Assembly: GCF_900100945.1 (NCBI RefSeq)
Contig: NZ_FNCG01000004.1
Span: forward strand, 186,001-250,000
Source: Mucilaginibacter gossypii
GTDB taxonomy: Bacteria > Bacteroidota > Bacteroidia > Sphingobacteriales > Sphingobacteriaceae
Direction: 5' to 3'
DNA length: 64,000 bases
Made by a program: the position numbers and the translations under genes. The notes below the pieces were generated by a model, which was not told where the DNA came from, searched no databases, and was given only the letters and a program-made list of their open reading frames with translations. Shown here one piece after another: positions 14,748 through 62,244 of this stretch; position 1 is the stretch's first letter; each line of letters opens with the position of its first letter.

Positions 14748-16115
14748 TTATTGGGTATTATAAACCGGCAGCATTACCCTGATCTCGGTACCTTCGCCCT
14801 CTTTAGAAACGATACCGATATTGCCCTTATGCAGCCTTACAATGTTTAGTGCAAGAGGGAGGCCTACGCCGTGCCCCTCATATTTGCCGGTATTTGAAGC
14901 GCGGAAGAATGGCTCAAATATATGTTGGACATCACTTTCCGGAATACCTATCCCCTGGTCCTTTACACTAAAAATGACGCTGTGATTTTCGGCATATACT
15001 TTAAGAATTACCGGCTTGTTTTCGGAATATTTACAGGCGTTAAGGCCAATATTACTTATGGCCAGTTGGAGCAGGTTGATGTTGCCCTGTGTAACCAGGC
15101 TATCCACATCATCGGGTAGTGATGAAAAATCAATGCTGAGGTTATTTGTCGGGATAATATGATCAACAGCTTCTTTAACCATAAACGCCAGCTCATCGGC
15201 TCTAATTTGTTCCCAGTTTTGTTTTTTACCGTCGAACCCGCTTTGTGCCAGTCCCAATAAACTGGTAATAATATCCTGCAGGCTTTGTGTGCCGGTTAGG
15301 ATCTCTTTGAGGTTTTTATGCAGATCGGCCCCCGGTTGATCCAGATTTTTGAGGGAAAGTTCGGCTTCGCCTTTAATGATGGCCAGGGGGGTGCGTAACT
15401 CGTGCGACGCGTTGCTGATAAAATTGTTCTGGGTTTCAAAGGCTGTTTCCAGCCTGTCGAGCATGTTGTTGAAAGTTTGGGTAAGCTCGGCTATTTCGTC
15501 TTTCCCGTTGTAATCCTCCAAACGCAAATGCAGGTTGCTGGCGGTAATGGTATTTACCTTTTTTATGATGCTGCGTACCGGCTTAAAGGTATGGTATGAA
15601 AACCGGCGACCAATAATATACACAATCAATATCGAGATCAGGAAACTGACTATCAGCACCTGCTCAAGATCATTAAGTTCACTAAGGCCCGATGGATTGG
15701 TTGCCGAAACCACAATGATAGCATCCCCCTCGGGAAAGTGGAAGATATTGCCGGCGTAAAATACATTATCGGCTTTAAATCTTGATTTTCCGTTGGCGAT
15801 GATGTTATTTATTAGTTGGCGCGGAACGCCTTTCACCGTTTTGCCTTTTGTGTAAATATCAGGTTTAATGATGTATTGCTTTTCGGCTATGAGGCGTTCC
15901 AGATAGCGCTGGCGTATTTCCCGGTACACGCCAAGGCTGTCGCGATCATTCAGGTGATGGATTTGGGAGGAGATGTTTACACGGGTCTCAAGCCGTTTAT
16001 AAAAATCATCGAAGGTAAACTGGTGTACAAAATAGAAAATAGCGCTACTGAATATCAATATTACCGACACTGTTAGCACCAGGAACAGTAGCGCTACTTT
16101 TTTCTGGATGCTCAT
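14748..16115 (-). CDS. sensor histidine kinase (HAMP, EnvZ/BaeS-like)
   Basis: Inner-membrane kinase of 455 residues. Transmembrane helix 1 is at about residues 8-32 and helix 2 at 150-170, enclosing an extracytoplasmic sensor domain of about 115 residues with no recognised ligand fold. A HAMP linker follows (about 166-220). The dimerisation domain has the phosphoacceptor His238 in SNASHELRTPLAIIKGEAEL. The ATPase boxes are ISNIGLNACKYSEN (N box), VKDQGIGIPESD (G1), FFRASNTGKYEGHGVGLPLA (F/G2). All catalytic motifs are intact. Its start codon directly follows the TAA of the response regulator, so the two are translationally coupled. The signal sensed is unknown. Confidence 0.95.
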   Translation of the reverse strand: MSIQKKVALLFLVLTVSVILIFSSAIFYFVHQFTFDDFYKRLETRVNISSQIHHLNDRDSLGVYREIRQRYLERLIAEKQYIIKPDIYTKGKTVKGVPRQLINNIIANGKSRFKADNVFYAGNIFHFPEGDAIIVVSATNPSGLSELNDLEQVLIVSFLISILIVYIIGRRFSYHTFKPVRSIIKKVNTITASNLHLRLEDYNGKDEIAELTQTFNNMLDRLETAFETQNNFISNASHELRTPLAIIKGEAELSLKNLDQPGADLHKNLKEILTGTQSLQDIITSLLGLAQSGFDGKKQNWEQIRADELAFMVKEAVDHIIPTNNLSIDFSSLPDDVDSLVTQGNINLLQLAISNIGLNACKYSENKPVILKVYAENHSVIFSVKDQGIGIPESDVQHIFEPFFRASNTGKYEGHGVGLPLALNIVRLHKGNIGIVSKEGEGTEIRVMLPVYNTQ

Positions 16116-16799
16116 TTAAGCCGCGTTATTTTTTAAAATATAACCCATGCCAATAACTGTATGGATCAATTTGTTGTTAAAATCTTTATCCACCTTTTTG
16201 CGCAGGTAGTTAATGTATACATCAACCACGTTGGTGCCCATATTAAAATCAATGTTCCAAACGTGCTCTAATATCTCAATGCGACTGAGCATGTGGTTTT
16301 TATTTTTAGCCAGAAACTCCAGCAGGCGATATTCTGTAGCTGTCAGGTCGATGGTTTTATCACCGCGTTTAACTGATTTTTCGTCGCCGTTAATTACGAG
16401 GTCGGCAATTTGGATTAGGTTTGGTGGCTGTACAAGATTGGTATTGCGGCGGGCCAGGGTGCGGATGCGGGCATTGAGTTCGGCAAGGCTAAAGGGTTTA
16501 ACCATGTAATCATCAGCACCGCTGTCGAGACCTACAACTACGTTTTCGGTAGTACCGAGTGCGGTAAGCATTAATATGGCGGCATTCTGGTTGGCCTGCC
16601 GTAAGCGGCGACAAACCTCAATGCCATTAATACCGGGTAGCATGATGTCAAGAATGATCAATTGAAAATCCATTTTCATAGCCATATCCAACCCGGTTGT
16701 ACCATCAAGGGCAACGCTTATTTCGTGGCCTTCGGCGGTAAGGTCGCGCTGGATAATGGATACCAGTTTGGGTTCATCTTCTATGAGCAGGATCTTCAT
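16116..16799 (-). CDS. OmpR-family response regulator
   Basis: A 227-residue DNA-binding regulator. The receiver domain has the acidic pocket E7/D8, the phosphoacceptor Asp51 in LIILDIMLPGINGIEV, a Thr in LMLTALGTT, and the conserved Lys in ADDYMVKPFSLAEL. The C-terminal winged helix (about residues 130-225) shows the OmpR pattern LTATEYRLLEFLAKN and HVWNIDFNMGTNVVDVYINY. It is paired with the downstream kinase gene with no gap. The targets are not visible in this window; the adjacent lipoprotein pair on the other strand is a candidate only by position. Confidence 0.96.
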   Translation of the reverse strand: MKILLIEDEPKLVSIIQRDLTAEGHEISVALDGTTGLDMAMKMDFQLIILDIMLPGINGIEVCRRLRQANQNAAILMLTALGTTENVVVGLDSGADDYMVKPFSLAELNARIRTLARRNTNLVQPPNLIQIADLVINGDEKSVKRGDKTIDLTATEYRLLEFLAKNKNHMLSRIEILEHVWNIDFNMGTNVVDVYINYLRKKVDKDFNNKLIHTVIGMGYILKNNAA

Positions 16800-31157: not shown

Positions 31158-31685
31158 ATGGCTGAAATTAACTTTGACTATCATCCACAATTTTTCACAG
31201 CAACAATTTTAGAATGGAAGCCATTGCTAACAGAAGATATTTATAAAGATATAATTATAAAAAGTCTGTTGTTTCTAAAAAACGAAGGAAGTATAGTTGT
31301 TTATGGGTTCGTGATAATGCCTAATCACATTCATTTGATATGGCAGATACAAGACGGACATACACGGGATTTGGTTCAAATGCGTTTCTTGAAATTTACG
31401 GCGCAGCAGATGAAATTCAGCTTATTGGATAGTAATGATGATAGATTATCCCTACTTATGGTTAATGCCAAGGATCGGAAATATCAATTTTGGGAGCGAA
31501 ATTCCTTAAGTATTGATTTGTGGACCCCGGACGTTTTTATGCAAAAGTTGGACTATATCCACAATAATCCATTGCAGGAAAAATGGAAATTGGTTCAATA
31601 TCCGGAAGATTATAAATATTCATCTGCCAGGTTTTATGAAACGGGGATAGACGAGTTCGGTTTAATTACACATCATGCAGGGTGA
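31158..31685 (+). CDS. second REP-associated tyrosine transposase (RAYT), Y1/HUH fold
   Basis: A 175-residue Y1_Tnp protein with HUH motif NHIHLIW (in GFVIMPNHIHLIWQIQDG, about residues 50-67) and the C-terminal signature QKLDYIHNNPLQEKWKLVQY and YPEDYKYSSA. Sequence similarity to the first RAYT is confined to these motifs; the middle region (TRDLVQMRFLKFTAQQMKFS) matches a different subgroup. Its flanking palindromes (GTTGTTGGTG type) are also unrelated to those of the first RAYT, so each transposase pairs with its own hairpin. The frame is intact. Base use is more AT-rich than in the neighbours, consistent with a mobile origin. Confidence 0.92.
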   Translation: MAEINFDYHPQFFTATILEWKPLLTEDIYKDIIIKSLLFLKNEGSIVVYGFVIMPNHIHLIWQIQDGHTRDLVQMRFLKFTAQQMKFSLLDSNDDRLSLLMVNAKDRKYQFWERNSLSIDLWTPDVFMQKLDYIHNNPLQEKWKLVQYPEDYKYSSARFYETGIDEFGLITHHAG

Positions 31686-31688
31686 ATA

Positions 31689-31712
31689 GTTGTTGGTGAC
31701 AACACCAACAAC
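31689..31712 (-). repeat. REP-like hairpin, family 2, inverted, 3' of second RAYT
   Basis: GTTGTTGGTG, ACAA, CACCAACAAC; the loop is the reverse complement of the upstream copy's TTGT, so it is inverted. The word TTAGATA beside the upstream copy also recurs beside this one in reverse. It starts four bases after the RAYT stop. Confidence 0.85.
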
Positions 31713-31747
31713 GGCGTGGTATCTAACGCGTCCCTAATTTTTTAGCA

Positions 31748-31770
31748 ATTGTTGGTGTTGTCACCAACAA
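31748..31770 (+). repeat. REP-like hairpin, family 2, third copy
   Basis: TTGTTGGTG, TTGT, CACCAACAA in the same orientation as the upstream copy. With 31689-31712 it forms an inverted pair. Confidence 0.8.
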
Positions 31771-31850
31771 TAACCAATTCACCTGATAAGCAGCCTTTAA
31801 GCACGAAATCAATTCCTTAATTAAATCGGTAACAATCGTTTTACCAATCT

Positions 31851-54558: not shown

Positions 54559-57063
54559 ATGCTAAAGATCAACCTCGTACTCGCTTTAAGGAATATTTTT
54601 CGCAACAAGCTTTACACAGCTATTAATATTATTGGGCTCGGTACAGCAAGCGCTTTTTGCATCCTGGTTTATCTGCATTTAAAAAACGAACAATCATTTG
54701 ATAAATTTCATAACGATGCGGATCAGTTGTACCGGGTTGAAGAAACTGGTTTAAATCAGCCGGTAGCAGAAGATAAGAAAAGCAAAGGTTTTTTTTCGAT
54801 GTTAACAAAGAAAGAAGACGAGGAAAATACCATAGTTACCCCTCCAATTTTAGGGCCCGATCTGAAACGAAATTTTCCCGAAGTGGAAAGCGCCGTGAGG
54901 TTTGATGGTTATTACAAACCAGTTATTAAAGTAGGCAATCAGAATTTTCAAGAGGACGGGAATACACTTACTTTTGTAGATGCCGATTTTTTCAAGGTTT
55001 TTAATTTTCCCTTGTTGCAAGGCAATCCGGAAACTGTGCTATCGGGCCATAACGAGGCTGTGATCAGCGAACGTTTGGCAAAAAAATATTTCGGTAATGC
55101 CGATCCTGTTGGCAAAACAGTAATGGTCCCCGGCGAATCGAACCCGGTGCCGGTAAGCATTGTGGGCTTAATGAAAAATTTTCCGGCTAACTCAAGCATG
55201 CAGTTTGATATGGTGATGCCTATCACATCAATGGCAGGCTATAAAGACAAAATGGGTGCAGGCCTTAACTCATATAACGAAATATTGGTTATCAAATTAA
55301 AAAAAGGAACTGATGCAGGCCGCTTTCAACATAAGCTGGATGAGTTTTCGAAAAAATACTTTAATCCCCAAACCGAAGCATCAAAAGCCCCGGCTAATAA
55401 AGTTTCTGATACCTATATCCGTTTAAGGCCCTTGGCCGATGCGCATTACAATATTAGCGGGGCTTGGGATCATTACACTAACTTGAAAAATATTTACCAG
55501 TTAAGCAGCCTCGCTGTGCTCATTTTGGTAATAGCCTGCTTTAATTATGTGCTGTTAACGCTAACCAACGCAGTTTCCCGCTCGCAGGATGTGGGTGTAC
55601 GCAAAACGATAGGCGCAGGCCGTTTGCAAATTATATTTCAGTATTATACACAAACACAGGTGCTTGCATTTATATCTGTAGCAGTTGGCTTTTTGTTGGC
55701 CATTATCATAATGCCATTCTTTAACCATTTAACAGGGGCTACTATGTCATTCAGTAGTTTTAGGGTTATTGATATGTTGGTGTTGATAACGGTTTTGACT
55801 TTGGTACTCGGTTTCCTGGCGGGTATTTACCCGGCTTACGCCATGTCTGGGTTAAAGCCACTAAATATTATGCGCGGGTTTTCGGCTTATCGGATAAGCC
55901 CCGTACTATCAAAAAGCCTTATTGTGGTACAGTTTGGTGTTTGTGTGTTGCTGGTAATATCATCGCTCATTATCAATAAGCAAATGCATTTTGTTAGCCA
56001 AACCGAAATGGGTTTTGATAAGGACCAGGTGGTAGTGGTAGAAAATCCCTATTGGGGAGGTGATAAACAAATTTCTGCCGCATTACAACGCGAACTTTAT
56101 CATTGGGCAGATACGCAGCCCTTTATAGCGGGTATTACAAGTACGTCATTTTCATTTGGCGGGGTTAGTAGAAATACACATACCATTAATGGTGAAAAAG
56201 TACCAATTGATTACCTGGATGCTGATTTTGAATATTTTAAATTTAACAAGATACCGATTTTACTTGGCCGCGACTTTTCGCGGGATATTGCGACAGACAG
56301 CGCCTCGTTCCAGTTAACGGATGATCAGAAAAAACCTCAGGGTACTAAATTAAGACATAATACCATCGTTAATCAAACCCTGTACAAATTGCTCGGTAAA
56401 CCGGCCCTTAACGTGTATAACCCAACTATTGGCGGGATAATTATCGGTGTTTGTAAAGACTACCATAACCGAGACCTTACTCAGGCAATACAACCAGGCT
56501 ATCACACCGTAAATCGTGACCATATCGGTTATTTCTGGTTCAGGATCAAAGCCCACCAGAGCATTCCGCCGGCTATGGAAAAACTGAAAGCCGAATGGAA
56601 TATACTAACCAACAACCTGCCTTTAAATTACAGTTTTATGGATGAACAGATTGCCAGAAGCTACAACGCTTATTTACAATGGATGACCACAATCACCACA
56701 TCATGCATCATAGCCATATTATTGGCCTGCCTTGGTTTATTCGGCTTGTCGGGACTTACTACTATTAACCGTACCAAAGAGATAGGCATCCGTAAAGTGC
56801 TGGGCGCGTCGGTAAGCAGTCTGTTTTTGCAGCTTAACCGCAGTACCATGTACCTTGCCGCCGCCGCATTTGTAATAGCAACCCCGTTGGCCTGGTACCT
56901 GTCTAACAGCTGGCTGCAAAATTTCGCATATCGCATTAAGCCCGATTGGCTGCTGTTTGTTACCGGGGCAGTAATATCAGTTATTACAGCGCTTGCATCG
57001 GTAAGCTATCACACATTGAAAGCTGCCAGGGCAAATCCTGCGGATAGTTTGAGAAGTGAATAA
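54559..57063 (+). CDS. MacB/FtsX-type ABC transporter permease 1
   Basis: An 834-residue inner-membrane protein of the MacB_PCD/FtsX type. Helix 1 is at about residues 20-42 after MLKINLVLALRNIFRNKLYT. A large periplasmic domain (about 45-290: VEETGLNQPVAEDKK, ADPVGKTVMVPG) precedes helices 2-4 (about 315-425), then a second helix with another periplasmic stretch, and three C-terminal helices (about 720-820) with the motif RTKEIGIRKVLGASVSSLFL. This motif repeats in the middle (SQDVGVRKTIGAGRLQII), as in duplicated FtsX domains. No ATPase gene is adjacent. Such permeases may drive mechanotransmission or drug/peptide export; the substrate is unknown. Confidence 0.93.
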   Translation: MLKINLVLALRNIFRNKLYTAINIIGLGTASAFCILVYLHLKNEQSFDKFHNDADQLYRVEETGLNQPVAEDKKSKGFFSMLTKKEDEENTIVTPPILGPDLKRNFPEVESAVRFDGYYKPVIKVGNQNFQEDGNTLTFVDADFFKVFNFPLLQGNPETVLSGHNEAVISERLAKKYFGNADPVGKTVMVPGESNPVPVSIVGLMKNFPANSSMQFDMVMPITSMAGYKDKMGAGLNSYNEILVIKLKKGTDAGRFQHKLDEFSKKYFNPQTEASKAPANKVSDTYIRLRPLADAHYNISGAWDHYTNLKNIYQLSSLAVLILVIACFNYVLLTLTNAVSRSQDVGVRKTIGAGRLQIIFQYYTQTQVLAFISVAVGFLLAIIIMPFFNHLTGATMSFSSFRVIDMLVLITVLTLVLGFLAGIYPAYAMSGLKPLNIMRGFSAYRISPVLSKSLIVVQFGVCVLLVISSLIINKQMHFVSQTEMGFDKDQVVVVENPYWGGDKQISAALQRELYHWADTQPFIAGITSTSFSFGGVSRNTHTINGEKVPIDYLDADFEYFKFNKIPILLGRDFSRDIATDSASFQLTDDQKKPQGTKLRHNTIVNQTLYKLLGKPALNVYNPTIGGIIIGVCKDYHNRDLTQAIQPGYHTVNRDHIGYFWFRIKAHQSIPPAMEKLKAEWNILTNNLPLNYSFMDEQIARSYNAYLQWMTTITTSCIIAILLACLGLFGLSGLTTINRTKEIGIRKVLGASVSSLFLQLNRSTMYLAAAAFVIATPLAWYLSNSWLQNFAYRIKPDWLLFVTGAVISVITALASVSYHTLKAARANPADSLRSE

Positions 57064-57893: not shown

Positions 57894-58050
57894 AGTGATG
57901 ATTTTTGATTGTGTTTTCAGTAATTTTAGCTGAAGATATAAAGGCAAAAAAATATAATTGATTTATAAACCGCAATGCACAATCAATTGCAGTTATTGGA
58001 TTATTCGTGGGTTGGCAGAATACCGGCGTTGGAAATCCTTCCAATAAAAC

Positions 58051-58066
58051 CGGACACAACCGTCCG
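58051..58066. promoter_or_regulatory. CGGAC/GTCCG dyad upstream of AraC-FtsX fusion gene
   Basis: CGGAC, ACAACC, GTCCG about 95 bases before the TTG start. A related dyad with opposite polarity lies at 54390. Weak evidence for a regulator site. Confidence 0.3.
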
Positions 58067-58159
58067 TTTTTATTACGGTAGCTTTGTGTGTAAAATATTA
58101 TTTGAATTGTATATCAATGAGTTATGAAGTTGGAATAACCTTTGAAACAATAATATAAC

Positions 58160-61100
58160 TTGACCGCGTATAGTTTCCATATCACCCTATATGACCTGGC
58201 GTTTTTGGCTGCGATATTTATCGGCCTCACGTTTAGCCTGTTGCTATGGTTTACCAAAAGCATTAACCTCTCTGCAAATCGTTTTCTGGCCCTTGCTATG
58301 CTAACCATTGTTTTATGGATGGCCTGGGTGTCGGGAAAAAGCGTTGAATTGAGCGCTTATTTTCCACATTGGAACCGGCTGCCGCTTCAATTTTCGCTGG
58401 CACTGGGCCCGTTCATTTATTTTTATGTGCTTAAGATAACCCGGCCGGGATATAAATTACATAGTACAGATTTGCTGCACTTTATCCCCTTGTTATTGCA
58501 ACAGGGCATTTTTATATTGAAGATTGGGCAAAGCGTCGGCAACATCACGGCAACTTATCACACATCGGTCTTTCGGCAAACGGGCCTGGTACTGAATATG
58601 GCGACATTCATTTCGGTACTTGCCTATTTGTATATTTCATTTGGGTTGATTGAAAGCTATTACCAACAGTTGAAATTCAATCACGTAAATGACCGCTACC
58701 GCAACCAAATGCGCTGGCTGGTCCGGTTAATCAAAGCCTTTGGTTTTTTATGGTTATTATGGCTGCCATATGCCGTTGCAGATTTTTTTTATTTCCACCA
58801 ACGGTTAGGAATCCAAGCGTACTATCCCTTGTATTTGCTGTTAGCGGGAATGATGATTTGGATAGCGGCGACGGTTCATTCAAAACCAGGAACTTCAGTT
58901 ATTGTGCAAGCCTCCCCGGTTTTGAAGGCACCGGTTTCAGCGGAGCTCAGGCAAAAAGGAACCTGGCTAAGGAAGGCTATGGAGGCCAACCGGTATTACC
59001 ACGATGCCGAACTGAATTTGACCTCGCTTGCCGAAAAATTGGGCCTCACCGTTCATGAGCTATCCCGGATCATCAATGTGGCACTCAAGAAAAACTTTAA
59101 CGATTTTATCAATGAATATCGCGTTGCGGAAGTAATCCGGAAAATGCGGGATCCTACTTTTGCCCATATAACCCTGCTTGGTATAGCACTGGAGTCGGGG
59201 TTTAATTCAAAATCTTCTTTTAACCGCATTTTTAAACAGATGACCGGCAAAAGTCCGGCGGAATATAAAAGTGAGCCCCAAAAAGAGTTCCCAAGTTATA
59301 ACTTAAGACGACACACCCAGTTTGCAGGGGTAATTTCGAAGCATGAAACCACAATTATGTGGCCTTCCCGGAAATTAAACCGCAGCTATATGTTCAAAAA
59401 TTATTTTAAGATCGCGTGGCGTAATATCACCCGTCACAAAAGTTACTCGGCCATTAATGTAGCCGGGCTGGCGGTGGGCATTGCGGCCTGCCTGCTGATA
59501 TTTGTAGTTGTTCAATATGAGTTGAGCTTTGATACCTATCAACCCGGTTATAAAAGCACTTATCGCATCGTTACCAAAAAAGACAGGGAAGGCAATATCA
59601 GGTATAGTGCCGGGATCTCAACACCCGCTGTAGATGCTTTTCGTCTTTATTTCCCACAGGCTACCATTGCAGGTATCAACGCCATTTATGGCAGCCAGAT
59701 CGTAGCCCCGGCGGCTAACGGGAACGCCGCCGGCGATAAAAAGTTTGTTGAGAACACCGGCATCATGTTTGCCGAACCTCAGCTTTTCGATATTTTTTCA
59801 GCAACCTGGCTTGCCGGCAGCGCGTTGGCTTTAAAAGATCCTAACATGGTGGTGATTGATAAAAGCAGCGCCGTAAAATATTTTGGTAACTGGCAAACGG
59901 CAGCAGGAAAAACACTTAGGATGGATAACCTGCTGACGCTAAAAGTAGCGGGTGTGATAAAGGATGTTCCCCCAAATACCGACCTGCCGCTCAAAGTGTT
60001 GATTTCGTACATCACCTGGAAGAAGAACCCCAAAAGCTACCATTACGCATATACCTGGGATGAAACCAGCAGCGACTGCCAGGTGTATATAAAATTTCCT
60101 GCAAATGTATTGCAAAGCAGCATCGAAAGTCAAATGCTCAGTTTTTCCGAAAAACAATTTAATAGTGATAGTAAACGCGCTGCCAGGAAAAGATATGCTG
60201 TAGCGCAACCCTTATCGGCAATCCATTTTGACACCAGTTTTGGCGGCACGCTGGGCGATCATGTAACCGGCAAGTCCACGCTGCGTACCTTGTCGCTTAT
60301 CGCGGTGCTGATCATCGTTATGGCATCCATCAATTTCATTAACCTTTCAACCGCGCAATCCGTTGGCCGCTCCAAAGAGGTAGGCATCCGCAAAGTGCTG
60401 GGCAGCAGCCGCGGGCAATTGGTAGGCCTGGTAATGTGCGAAACGGCCATTATCGTACTAATTTCGGCCGGCCTTGCAATTTGCATAGCCGAAATTGCTT
60501 TACCATTACTCAAACATATCGCCAGCGTTCCGGATACCATTGGTTTGTTCAATCCCGGCATATTACTTTGCCTGGCCTGTGTAATAGTTGCAGTGATACT
60601 GCTTTCAGGAGTATATCCGGCAATTATCGTATCGGGATTTAAACCTGTTGAGGCGCTGAAAAATAAGATTAATTCGGCGGCTGTCGGTGGTATATCGCTC
60701 CGCCGTGTGCTGGTAGTTACCCAGTTTACCATTTCACAGTTGCTGATTATCGGAACAGCTATCGCCGTTAAACAAATGGATTTTGTAAACAATGCCGACC
60801 TCGGGTTTAATAAAGAAGCCGTATTGGCCATACCATGCCCTGCCGATAGCATCGGTTTATCACGAATGAACAGCTTTAAACAGCAGGTGCTTACCTTGCA
60901 GGGTGTAAAGGCAGCCAGTTTTTCGGCTGACGCGCCATCGTCATCGCATAATAATTCAAGCAATTTCTACTTCAATCATTCAGATAAAGATCCTGGCTTT
61001 GATATTTTCATGAAAGTGGCCGACGCGGATTACTTTAAAACTTTTGGCCTCAGGTTTATAGCAGGCAAAAGCTATGAACCCAGCGATACCGCACGAGAAC

Positions 61101-61819
61101 TGGTGGTTAATGAAACTTTTATACACAAATTGGGTATTAAACGTGCAAATGATGCTTTAGGCAAAACCCTTACCTTTGATAGTTACGGAAACCTGCCCAT
61201 AGCAGGTGTTGTTGCCGACTTTAAAACAAACTCCATGCGCGAGGAAGTTAAACCGCTGGTGATGTTCCCCTCAAAACAATCGGAACAGCAAATAGCGGTA
61301 AAAATTGAAAGCCGGAGACTTGCAAAAACGGTAGCATTGGTGCAAAGTGCCTGGGAAAAGAAATATCCAGAATATGCCTACACCGGCTTTTTTGTTGACG
61401 ATAGCATTGCCAAATTTTACGAACAGGAAAACCAGCTTGAACTGATCTATAAAGTATTCGCGCTCATCGCTATTTTTATCTCCTGCCTTGGTTTGTACGG
61501 CCTGGTATCGTTTATGGCGGTACAGCGCACAAGAGAGGTAGGGATCCGAAAGATTTTAGGCGCATCAGTAAGCAGCATTGTGTACCTGTTTTCGAAGGAA
61601 TTTTTAGCTCTTATCGTGGTGGCATTTATGATTGGCGCGCCCCTTGCCTGGTACCTGATGAACGGATGGCTGCAAACTTTCACCTATCGTATTTCGCCGG
61701 GCTTATGGGTTTTTGTGGCAGCCATTACAACTTCGTTATTGATAGGCTGGTTCACGGTAGGTTACAAAGCGTTAAAAGCCGCGCTGGCGAACCCTGTAAA
61801 AAGTTTGAGGACAGAATAA
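58160..61819 (+). CDS. fusion: seven-helix membrane domain + AraC-type HTH + MacB/FtsX permease
   Basis: A single 1219-residue frame. Residues 1-250 hold seven membrane helices (LYDLAFLAAIFIGLTFSLLL is the first; YYPLYLLLAGMMIWIAATVH the last). Residues about 275-370 are an AraC-type HTH pair: LTSLAEKLGLTVHELSRIIN and ALESGFNSKSSFNRIFKQMT followed by GKSPAEYK. Residues 371-410 are an unstructured linker. From Met411 (MFKNYFKIAWRNITRHKSYS) the protein is a full-length FtsX/MacB permease with helices, a periplasmic domain and RSKEVGIRKVLGSSRGQLVG and RTREVGIRKILGASVSSIVY motifs. Topology agrees: seven helices put the HTH in the cytoplasm, where the permease N-terminus also starts. The start is TTG. 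It could also be read as two genes merged by loss of a stop. Confidence 0.88.
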   Translation: MTAYSFHITLYDLAFLAAIFIGLTFSLLLWFTKSINLSANRFLALAMLTIVLWMAWVSGKSVELSAYFPHWNRLPLQFSLALGPFIYFYVLKITRPGYKLHSTDLLHFIPLLLQQGIFILKIGQSVGNITATYHTSVFRQTGLVLNMATFISVLAYLYISFGLIESYYQQLKFNHVNDRYRNQMRWLVRLIKAFGFLWLLWLPYAVADFFYFHQRLGIQAYYPLYLLLAGMMIWIAATVHSKPGTSVIVQASPVLKAPVSAELRQKGTWLRKAMEANRYYHDAELNLTSLAEKLGLTVHELSRIINVALKKNFNDFINEYRVAEVIRKMRDPTFAHITLLGIALESGFNSKSSFNRIFKQMTGKSPAEYKSEPQKEFPSYNLRRHTQFAGVISKHETTIMWPSRKLNRSYMFKNYFKIAWRNITRHKSYSAINVAGLAVGIAACLLIFVVVQYELSFDTYQPGYKSTYRIVTKKDREGNIRYSAGISTPAVDAFRLYFPQATIAGINAIYGSQIVAPAANGNAAGDKKFVENTGIMFAEPQLFDIFSATWLAGSALALKDPNMVVIDKSSAVKYFGNWQTAAGKTLRMDNLLTLKVAGVIKDVPPNTDLPLKVLISYITWKKNPKSYHYAYTWDETSSDCQVYIKFPANVLQSSIESQMLSFSEKQFNSDSKRAARKRYAVAQPLSAIHFDTSFGGTLGDHVTGKSTLRTLSLIAVLIIVMASINFINLSTAQSVGRSKEVGIRKVLGSSRGQLVGLVMCETAIIVLISAGLAICIAEIALPLLKHIASVPDTIGLFNPGILLCLACVIVAVILLSGVYPAIIVSGFKPVEALKNKINSAAVGGISLRRVLVVTQFTISQLLIIGTAIAVKQMDFVNNADLGFNKEAVLAIPCPADSIGLSRMNSFKQQVLTLQGVKAASFSADAPSSSHNNSSNFYFNHSDKDPGFDIFMKVADADYFKTFGLRFIAGKSYEPSDTARELVVNETFIHKLGIKRANDALGKTLTFDSYGNLPIAGVVADFKTNSMREEVKPLVMFPSKQSEQQIAVKIESRRLAKTVALVQSAWEKKYPEYAYTGFFVDDSIAKFYEQENQLELIYKVFALIAIFISCLGLYGLVSFMAVQRTREVGIRKILGASVSSIVYLFSKEFLALIVVAFMIGAPLAWYLMNGWLQTFTYRISPGLWVFVAAITTSLLIGWFTVGYKALKAALANPVKSLRTE

Positions 61820-61848
61820 TCAGGAAGATTATTGTGAGACTACCTTCT

Positions 61849-61964
61849 CATCAGGGTCTCTTGTAGAGGACCCTGATGTTTCCACTATCAGCCTTGATCA
61901 TCTTACGAGAAAAGGCGTACCTGCTTGGCGAAGACATCAGGGTCCTCTACAAGAGACCCTGATG
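61849..61964. repeat. 116-bp miniature element with 30-bp perfect terminal inverted repeats
   Basis: The ends 61849-61878 and 61935-61964 are exact reverse complements over 30 bases. Each end is an imperfect palindrome between CATCAGGGTC and GACCCTGATG, with a TCTTGTAGAG loop region. The interior is 56 bases with no coding sense. It lies just after the fusion gene. The remaining gap to 62244 is AT-rich with no gene. Confidence 0.85.
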
Positions 61965-62244
61965 GAACGTAAAACTTGAGGACAGAATGATTCGGTAAGG
62001 CTTAATCAAATTAAAAAGCTGCTCCTCTATAAGCAAGGCAGCCTTTTATTTGATGGGCTCTATCGCAGGGTAGTAATGCCAGGCAGAAACGCACACCCGT
62101 TGTAACGTTTCCGAACGGCATTATAAATAAAATAACATTAATGTACTGTTTGTCAGTGTCTTAAATATGTGGCATGGGTTTTAGGCACTACCAGCGTATC
62201 AAATAGTTTATTTAAGTTTAACAACGTCTACAATCAGCATACCT

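Follow-up and report, generated by a model that had tools for sequence, protein, structure and literature searches.

A stretch of 64,000 nucleotides from the Mucilaginibacter gossypii genome (positions 186,001 to 250,000 of contig NZ_FNCG01000004.1; this whole stretch is here called the window) carries on its plus strand, at 58160-61819, a gene that joins a seven-helix membrane part, an AraC-type helix-turn-helix (HTH) pair and a complete MacB/FtsX permease. We hold with modest confidence that the gene encodes a one-component membrane regulator built in frame onto a type VII ATP-binding cassette (ABC) permease of the MacB/FtsX kind, and that the regulator came to it as an exchanged cassette. 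In what follows, the front part (N) comprises the seven helices, the HTH pair and the linker behind them, and a bare permease is one without this front part. Compared at the sequence level, the front part looks like a cassette exchanged among permease lineages, because its tree disagrees with that of the permeases and because the break between the two appears to lie at or adjacent to Met411, the permease's own start codon. Across the Mucilaginibacter group of soil Bacteroidota, the front part and its own promoter have apparently been moved onto different permeases.

A three-part gene in a single frame

The frame runs uninterrupted through 1219 codons between its TTG start and a TAA stop (the same DNA also lies at G000:C41:244160-247816; the host genome measures 7.1 Mb). 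The seven-helix (7TM) part spans residues 10-241 (58187-58882; model m58f239181633): in the predicted model of residues 1-411, seven long helices lie between residues 10 and 241 and the HTH helices come after them. The HTH pair (residues 281-372, 59000-59275) is matched by the Pfam family HTH_18 at residues 290-370 with 54.3 bits (cut-off 33.6), a tandem pair of the AraC/XylS type. It is followed by a linker (residues 373-410, 59276-59389) and by the permease (residues 411-1219 plus the stop, 59390-61819), in which Pfam finds two MacB_PCD stretches (best 430-657) and two FtsX stretches (best 713-826). A sequence-only reading of the window had described just such a frame, and the TTG-started three-part fusion is confirmed as a genuine single frame; the same reading gave the linker no fold, which is correct for the protein, since its predicted local distance difference test (pLDDT) scores stay below 50 in both structure models. 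Seven helices ahead of the HTH simply fit a cytoplasmic HTH. No histidine kinase, receiver or response regulator domain was matched by Pfam in the fused protein. A pooling of 13 pairs puts the ratio of nonsynonymous to synonymous change (pN/pS) at 0.16 for the HTH and 0.28 for the 7TM part. Together with the many HTH residues that are invariant among 22 aligned relatives, this argues against chance as the source of the fused layout. The start codon itself (58160-58162) is also well placed: at or nearest to the aligned position, 81 fused genes have TTG (71), ATG (6), GTG (3) or none (1), in a tally that looked for start codons only and in which one ATG case (L073_2318) stands off position. That different start codons interchange there supports this position as the true start.

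The fused family is old and multi-copy. The M. gossypii genome holds six three-part genes and 31 bare permeases (37 in total, one bare permease being only 705 amino acids long), and no stand-alone 7TM-AraC relative was seen among the own-genome matches. At 1e-30, the front part found a match in 22 of 41 own-genus genomes, most often in frames ~1150-1250 codons long. Of 301 genomes drawn from the family, 87 matched the front part, and frames that reach 1100 codons occurred in at least 33, spread over five genus codes; of 395 drawn across the phylum, 15 matched at 1e-40 and three, all from the own genus, had frames of full fused length. Four or six candidates were scored per genome in these two draws, so that their counts are lower bounds. 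In 79 loci of named genomes, we found 105 matching frames: 95 fused (94 genes, one being counted twice through overlapping loci; 82 of the 95 frames at 1100 amino acids or longer), seven permease-less and three cut by the end of the stretch. Fused members occur in Olivibacter, Hufsiella, Puia and other named genera, and the best named match of the window's front part is in Mucilaginibacter gossypiicola (82%). Four of the permease-less frames are true stand-alone proteins (two from Spirosoma, one each from Arsenicibacter and a member of the Flavobacteriaceae); the others are split within the linker (L081), broken (L135) or broken near a contig end (L087). In L081 (10858-12093), a natural split, the front part stops within the linker and the permease frame restarts at MFKNY. 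L071 (5971-9651), which comes from M. gossypiicola and is most closely related to the window gene, has a frame broken within the permease and not at the junction.

Relatives with the same three-part layout, the search for which the sequence-only reading had proposed as a check, occur in dozens of assemblies, and its suggestion of a recent merger of two genes did not hold: the six paralogues, the spread over genus and family genomes and the presence in other named genera rule it out. Nor do relatives always have a stop between the parts, as only one linker split, that of L081, was seen among the 105 frames. No description of an AraC-permease fusion was found in the literature searched, which was largely open access and included work on orphan permeases.

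The front part, its permeases and the upstream block

The two halves of the fused proteins vary almost independently of each other. Across 81 fused proteins, identity to the window gene is 30-63% in the 7TM part and falls from 87% to 28% in the permease; the four rows with a permease identity of at least 74% reach 56-63% in the 7TM part, and over 3240 pairs the rank correlation between front-part and permease identity is rho 0.08. The break was located in 35 pairs that are alike in the permease and unlike in N: their identity is 58% at residues 398-410, 92% at 411-418 and 91% at 419-426, and 1852 background pairs give 39%, 73% and 45%. The stretch just past Met411 is conserved anyway, since the background also rises there, but the step in the 35 pairs is still clear and points to an exchange break at or adjacent to this codon (59390-59392). 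To explain the label 'fused', a permease tree of 115 members calls for 19 changes (15 or more of them forced by starred branches) and a tree of 86 front parts for two; both are quick trees with weak deep branches.

Formal comparison by approximately unbiased (AU) tests gave the same picture for four groupings. The N clades {L164, L138, L141, L149}, {L126_2485, L126_5998} and {L133, L136} were rejected on permease data (p 2e-6, 4e-4 and 1e-57, respectively), and the permease clade {L129, L136} was rejected on N data (p 7e-5). L136 is the clearest chimera, its front part pairing with L133 and its permease with L129, each with a support of 100.

Most cassettes also carry a conserved upstream block resembling a sigma54 promoter. 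Ahead of the window gene, all on the plus strand and recognised as motifs, lie a palindrome like an upstream activating site (CGGAC-N6-GTCCG then TTTTTATTAC, 58050-58078; family core GTYCGnT), a site like the integration host factor (IHF) consensus (TATCAATGAGTTA, 58112-58124; WATCAR-N4-TTR) and a sigma54-type -24/-12 element (TTGGAATAACCTTTGA, 58130-58145) with GG at 58132 and G at 58144. The resulting 12-nt spacing is the canonical one, and sigma54 dependence of the block is inferred from such consensus motifs. The GTYCGnT core stands 95-99 nt upstream of the start in 49 of 81 fused genes and TTGGAA[CT] 28-32 nt upstream in 56 of 81, and anywhere in the 150 nt upstream of 34 bare permeases they occur once and not at all, respectively; neither was seen upstream of ten stand-alone relatives. 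Of 80 fused genes, 65 can be anchored to give the upstream consensus TTGGAACAnnnATTGA, whose G residues lie as far apart as those in a sigma54 -24/-12 element. The IHF-like site is present in 24 of these 65 (single-base shuffles: mean 0.9, maximum 4). The block tracks the front part (rho 0.41, Mantel p 0.002) and not the permease (0.06, p 0.094) in the 65 anchored genes. The own genome encodes one RpoN and 16 strong enhancer-binding proteins; an enhancer-binding protein on C28 was considered as the activator and dropped, as it adjoins a kdpA gene. Separately, a box like TGTTCG-N4/5-CGAACA lies upstream of three of 28 own-genome bare permeases (0.25 expected from shuffles; L167:6207, L150 before 4553, L157 before 10917), and may be an activator site akin to the one that precedes fused genes.

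The linker, Met411 and competing explanations

The linker is 38 residues long in 69 of 81 fused relatives. Within the front part, pN peaks here (0.17) and pS reaches its minimum (0.25, as opposed to 0.38-0.47 elsewhere), so that a pN/pS of 0.69 says nothing about selection on the protein and we discarded it as such a measure. Synonymous sites are more constrained here than anywhere else in the gene, at 0.85 bits per codon (highest of 1093 windows elsewhere: 0.54); for 32 less related sequences the values are 0.82 and 0.40. Within the linker, codons 377-384 (59288-59311, plus strand) form a palindrome with a paired fraction of 0.64 (next best centre 0.48; shuffles at most 0.59). Double-change cells number 62 at its centre (maximum 42 in 300 shuffles, at most 32 with slid partners), but two other linker centres reach 62 and 66 and the inner six palindrome pairs only equal the best shuffles; the palindrome is thus singled out by its paired fraction only, and compensation is a hint. 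RNAalifold found no consensus structure in 69 linkers. A possible internal -7 box of the Bacteroidetes type (TANNTTTG) is exact in seven of 81 linkers, and TANNTTCG is present in 48 of 81. The synonymous constraint, the palindrome and the Met411 codon described below suggest that the linker contains an embedded DNA or RNA element.

The sequence-only reading had raised the use of a second start at Met411. The codon is ATG in all 81 fused relatives, the sole Met column without exception, and the 20 nt before it have an A fraction of 0.46 (0.39 at 34 bare permease starts, 0.24 at 1974 other in-frame ATGs); this invariance and the DNA-level constraint of the linker lend support to its use, and a second product is perhaps started there. 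A further-reaching possibility, serious although we think it the less probable one, is that two products dominate: the front frame would mostly yield a regulator, the permease would mainly be made from Met411 and the fused chain would be a by-product. The invariant ATG, the A-rich context, the synonymous constraint with its palindrome and the natural linker split of L081 all speak for it. Yet a simple two-gene layout has no need of an open linker, whose length is held in most relatives, and in 69 linkers (a set selected for fused frames) the two remaining plus-strand frames were open 0 times and once; no Shine-Dalgarno-like motif precedes Met411 in the 81 genes; and the codon may be invariant merely because each permease brought its old start codon along.

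A number of observations weigh against a regulator that is mounted by exchange and acts on DNA. No DNA target of the HTH was found, either in a scan of the own genome with the upstream core or in a scan of 41 genomes with the linker palindrome. The exact core, rejected as a regulon marker, has three own-genome matches, one before a fused gene and two inside reading frames (window 31158-31685; L172 1292-1546), and the palindrome, rejected likewise, shows no excess over its control (four sites in four of 41 genomes for the strict pattern, nine in eight genomes for the reversed one). In the upstream block, the -12 element is mostly TTGA where TTGC is usual, with GC in some members, and the anchoring consensus derives from the same genes; upstream of own-genome bare permeases a sigma54-like pattern matched 0 of 28, with 1.04 expected from shuffles. 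A Pfam scan of eight neighbours within 20 kb, one cut open reading frame at the edge of L150 aside, turned up no ABC ATPase. As for the exchange itself, median N identity is ~55% at permease identities below 55% and 65-68% at 65% or above, N and permease are weakly correlated in the 65 anchored genes (Mantel rho 0.09, p 0.036), and three of the seven AU sets were not rejected on N data (the window's five, 0.16; {L079, L131}, 0.68 and 0.41 in two runs; a five-row set, 0.07), all sets having been picked post hoc from trees already inspected.

The missing target would suit an HTH that is past DNA binding, in a front part that merely anchors or regulates the permease; we consider this improbable, as the domain keeps its invariant residues, a pN/pS of 0.16 and a match above the Pfam cut-off. 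Just as small a chance is given to a scenario without exchange, in which fusion took place once in an ancestor and the front part was then lost many times. Here, four of five stand-alone relatives do branch outside nearly all fused rows, and the three unrejected sets fit; losses alone, however, would keep the two trees congruent, yet four AU sets reject congruence, identities are all but uncorrelated and L136 takes its two halves from different places in the trees. Finally, a frame-fusion artefact of assembly or annotation, which broken relatives such as L071 and L135 might recall, is refuted by the identical layout in dozens of independent assemblies and has a negligible probability.

Proposed mechanism, related systems and meaning

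On the preferred reading, of a one-component regulator carried as a cassette from permease to permease, the unit exchanged would comprise the promoter block, the TTG start, the 7TM part, the AraC HTH pair and the 38-residue linker, with the join at or adjacent to Met411. Its motifs suggest that a sigma54-type promoter drives the fused gene, in which case an enhancer-binding protein would activate it. What the 7TM part and the permease's periplasmic domains sense may be an envelope signal or how the permease is working; the HTH tethered to them may bind DNA at or near permease genes, possibly the gene's own linker palindrome or promoter, adjusting their expression. The embedded linker element and the A-rich context could in addition allow separate production of the permease from Met411. 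That envelope state would be coupled directly to gene control, as first proposed for this gene, is the most natural reading of such a layout. In a more specific version, which we find doubtful, a mobile promoter-plus-receptor cassette would be exchanged at the permease's ATG, bringing any FtsX-type permease under the command of a new receptor; it would use its linker DNA as both operator and internal start, the permease would also be made alone from Met411, and the HTH, by binding its own linker or promoter, would loop the state of the permease back to its dose.

Comparison with known systems places the permease among type VII ABC permeases, by its MacB_PCD and FtsX domains and by its fold. 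The best solved structure in Foldseek is YbbAP (9ge6, E 2.5e-17; YbbAP is described in PMC12646458), with MacB, BceAB and LolCDE also close, and the sequence matches are to MacB. With MacB, YbbP and the acidobacterial duplicated orphan permeases (ADOP), it shares the duplicated MacB_PCD-FtsX layout, but the window protein adds the 7TM-AraC front part, and its best NCBIfam match, ADOP (TIGR03434), scores 312 bits, below the cut-off of 622.3. Bce modules (BceAB with BceS), in which a type VII permease is complexed with a signalling protein, offer a working analogy (PMC10314905), and BceABS is among the fold matches; here, in contrast, the output is a DNA-binding domain in the same chain, and the Pfam scan shows no kinase or response regulator domain. 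In Bacteroides, hybrid two-component systems likewise combine a membrane sensor and a DNA-binding domain in a single chain (PMC11253607). A protein of this hybrid type (12aw) is the solved structure that the HTH matches best, with likeness also to YesN and AraT; the window chain differs from them in its lack of kinase and receiver matches and in the permease after the HTH. The excerpted text of a published promoter scan reports COG0577/FtsX-like permeases as enriched for sigma54 promoters in Bacteroidia and mentions no AraC fusion (PMC12316311).

The 7TM part can be superposed on G-protein-coupled receptors (Z ~15, root-mean-square deviation ~4, VIA), with Foldseek E values of 0.059 or worse for such chains, a resemblance that would concern the arrangement of helices only. 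Stand-alone 7TM-AraC regulators (in Spirosoma, Arsenicibacter, Flavobacteriaceae and some own-genus genomes) have the same front part, but no permease, and the sigma54-type block is absent in ten of ten. Three of four tested (L124, L153, L154) have a PF00144 beta-lactamase-fold gene immediately downstream, which hints at envelope sensing by this receptor family. PADLOC gave no anti-phage defence match.

In the window, bare permeases adjoin the fused gene at 54559-57063 and from 62245 onwards (complete in L150), and both lack the front part, as had been noted from the sequence. This three-permease cluster is flanked by heme-synthesis genes (L150:1079-3742 and 15021-16307; G000:C41), hemB- and hemC/D-like on one side and a glutamyl-tRNA reductase gene on the other. 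After the fused gene (61840-61970) stand two palindromic repeats in opposite orientation, CATCAGGGTC...GACCCTGATG, that resemble repetitive extragenic palindromic (REP) elements; further off, at 31158-31790, an open reading frame with a PNHIHLIW motif like that of REP-associated transposases, and with no Pfam match at 0.001, is followed by a long inverted repeat. Elsewhere in the genome (G000:C27:124206-174673; L156-L158, L186), a HlyD-type adaptor and a 225-residue ABC ATPase head an array of 18 bare MacB/FtsX permeases, divergent from a gene for an NtrC-type enhancer-binding protein, one of the 16 strong ones, with receiver, AAA+ and Fis-type HTH domains. In two Dyadobacter genomes, 28 and 33 ADOP have been counted (PMC11573002).

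Bacteroidota can hold dozens of MacB/FtsX-type permeases of unknown purpose, 37 in this genome, and permeases that share one chain with a receptor-like part and a DNA-binding domain give a direct handle on what they sense and control. Beyond the first reading of the window, which missed both, come the apparent exchange of the front part and its sigma54-like promoter block. A coding linker that also holds a DNA element would be amenable to simple genetics, and to swap modules near a defined codon and carry the promoter with them would be an unusual way of rewiring membrane signalling. If the proposal is true, cells may carry gene switches wired straight to their envelope machines.

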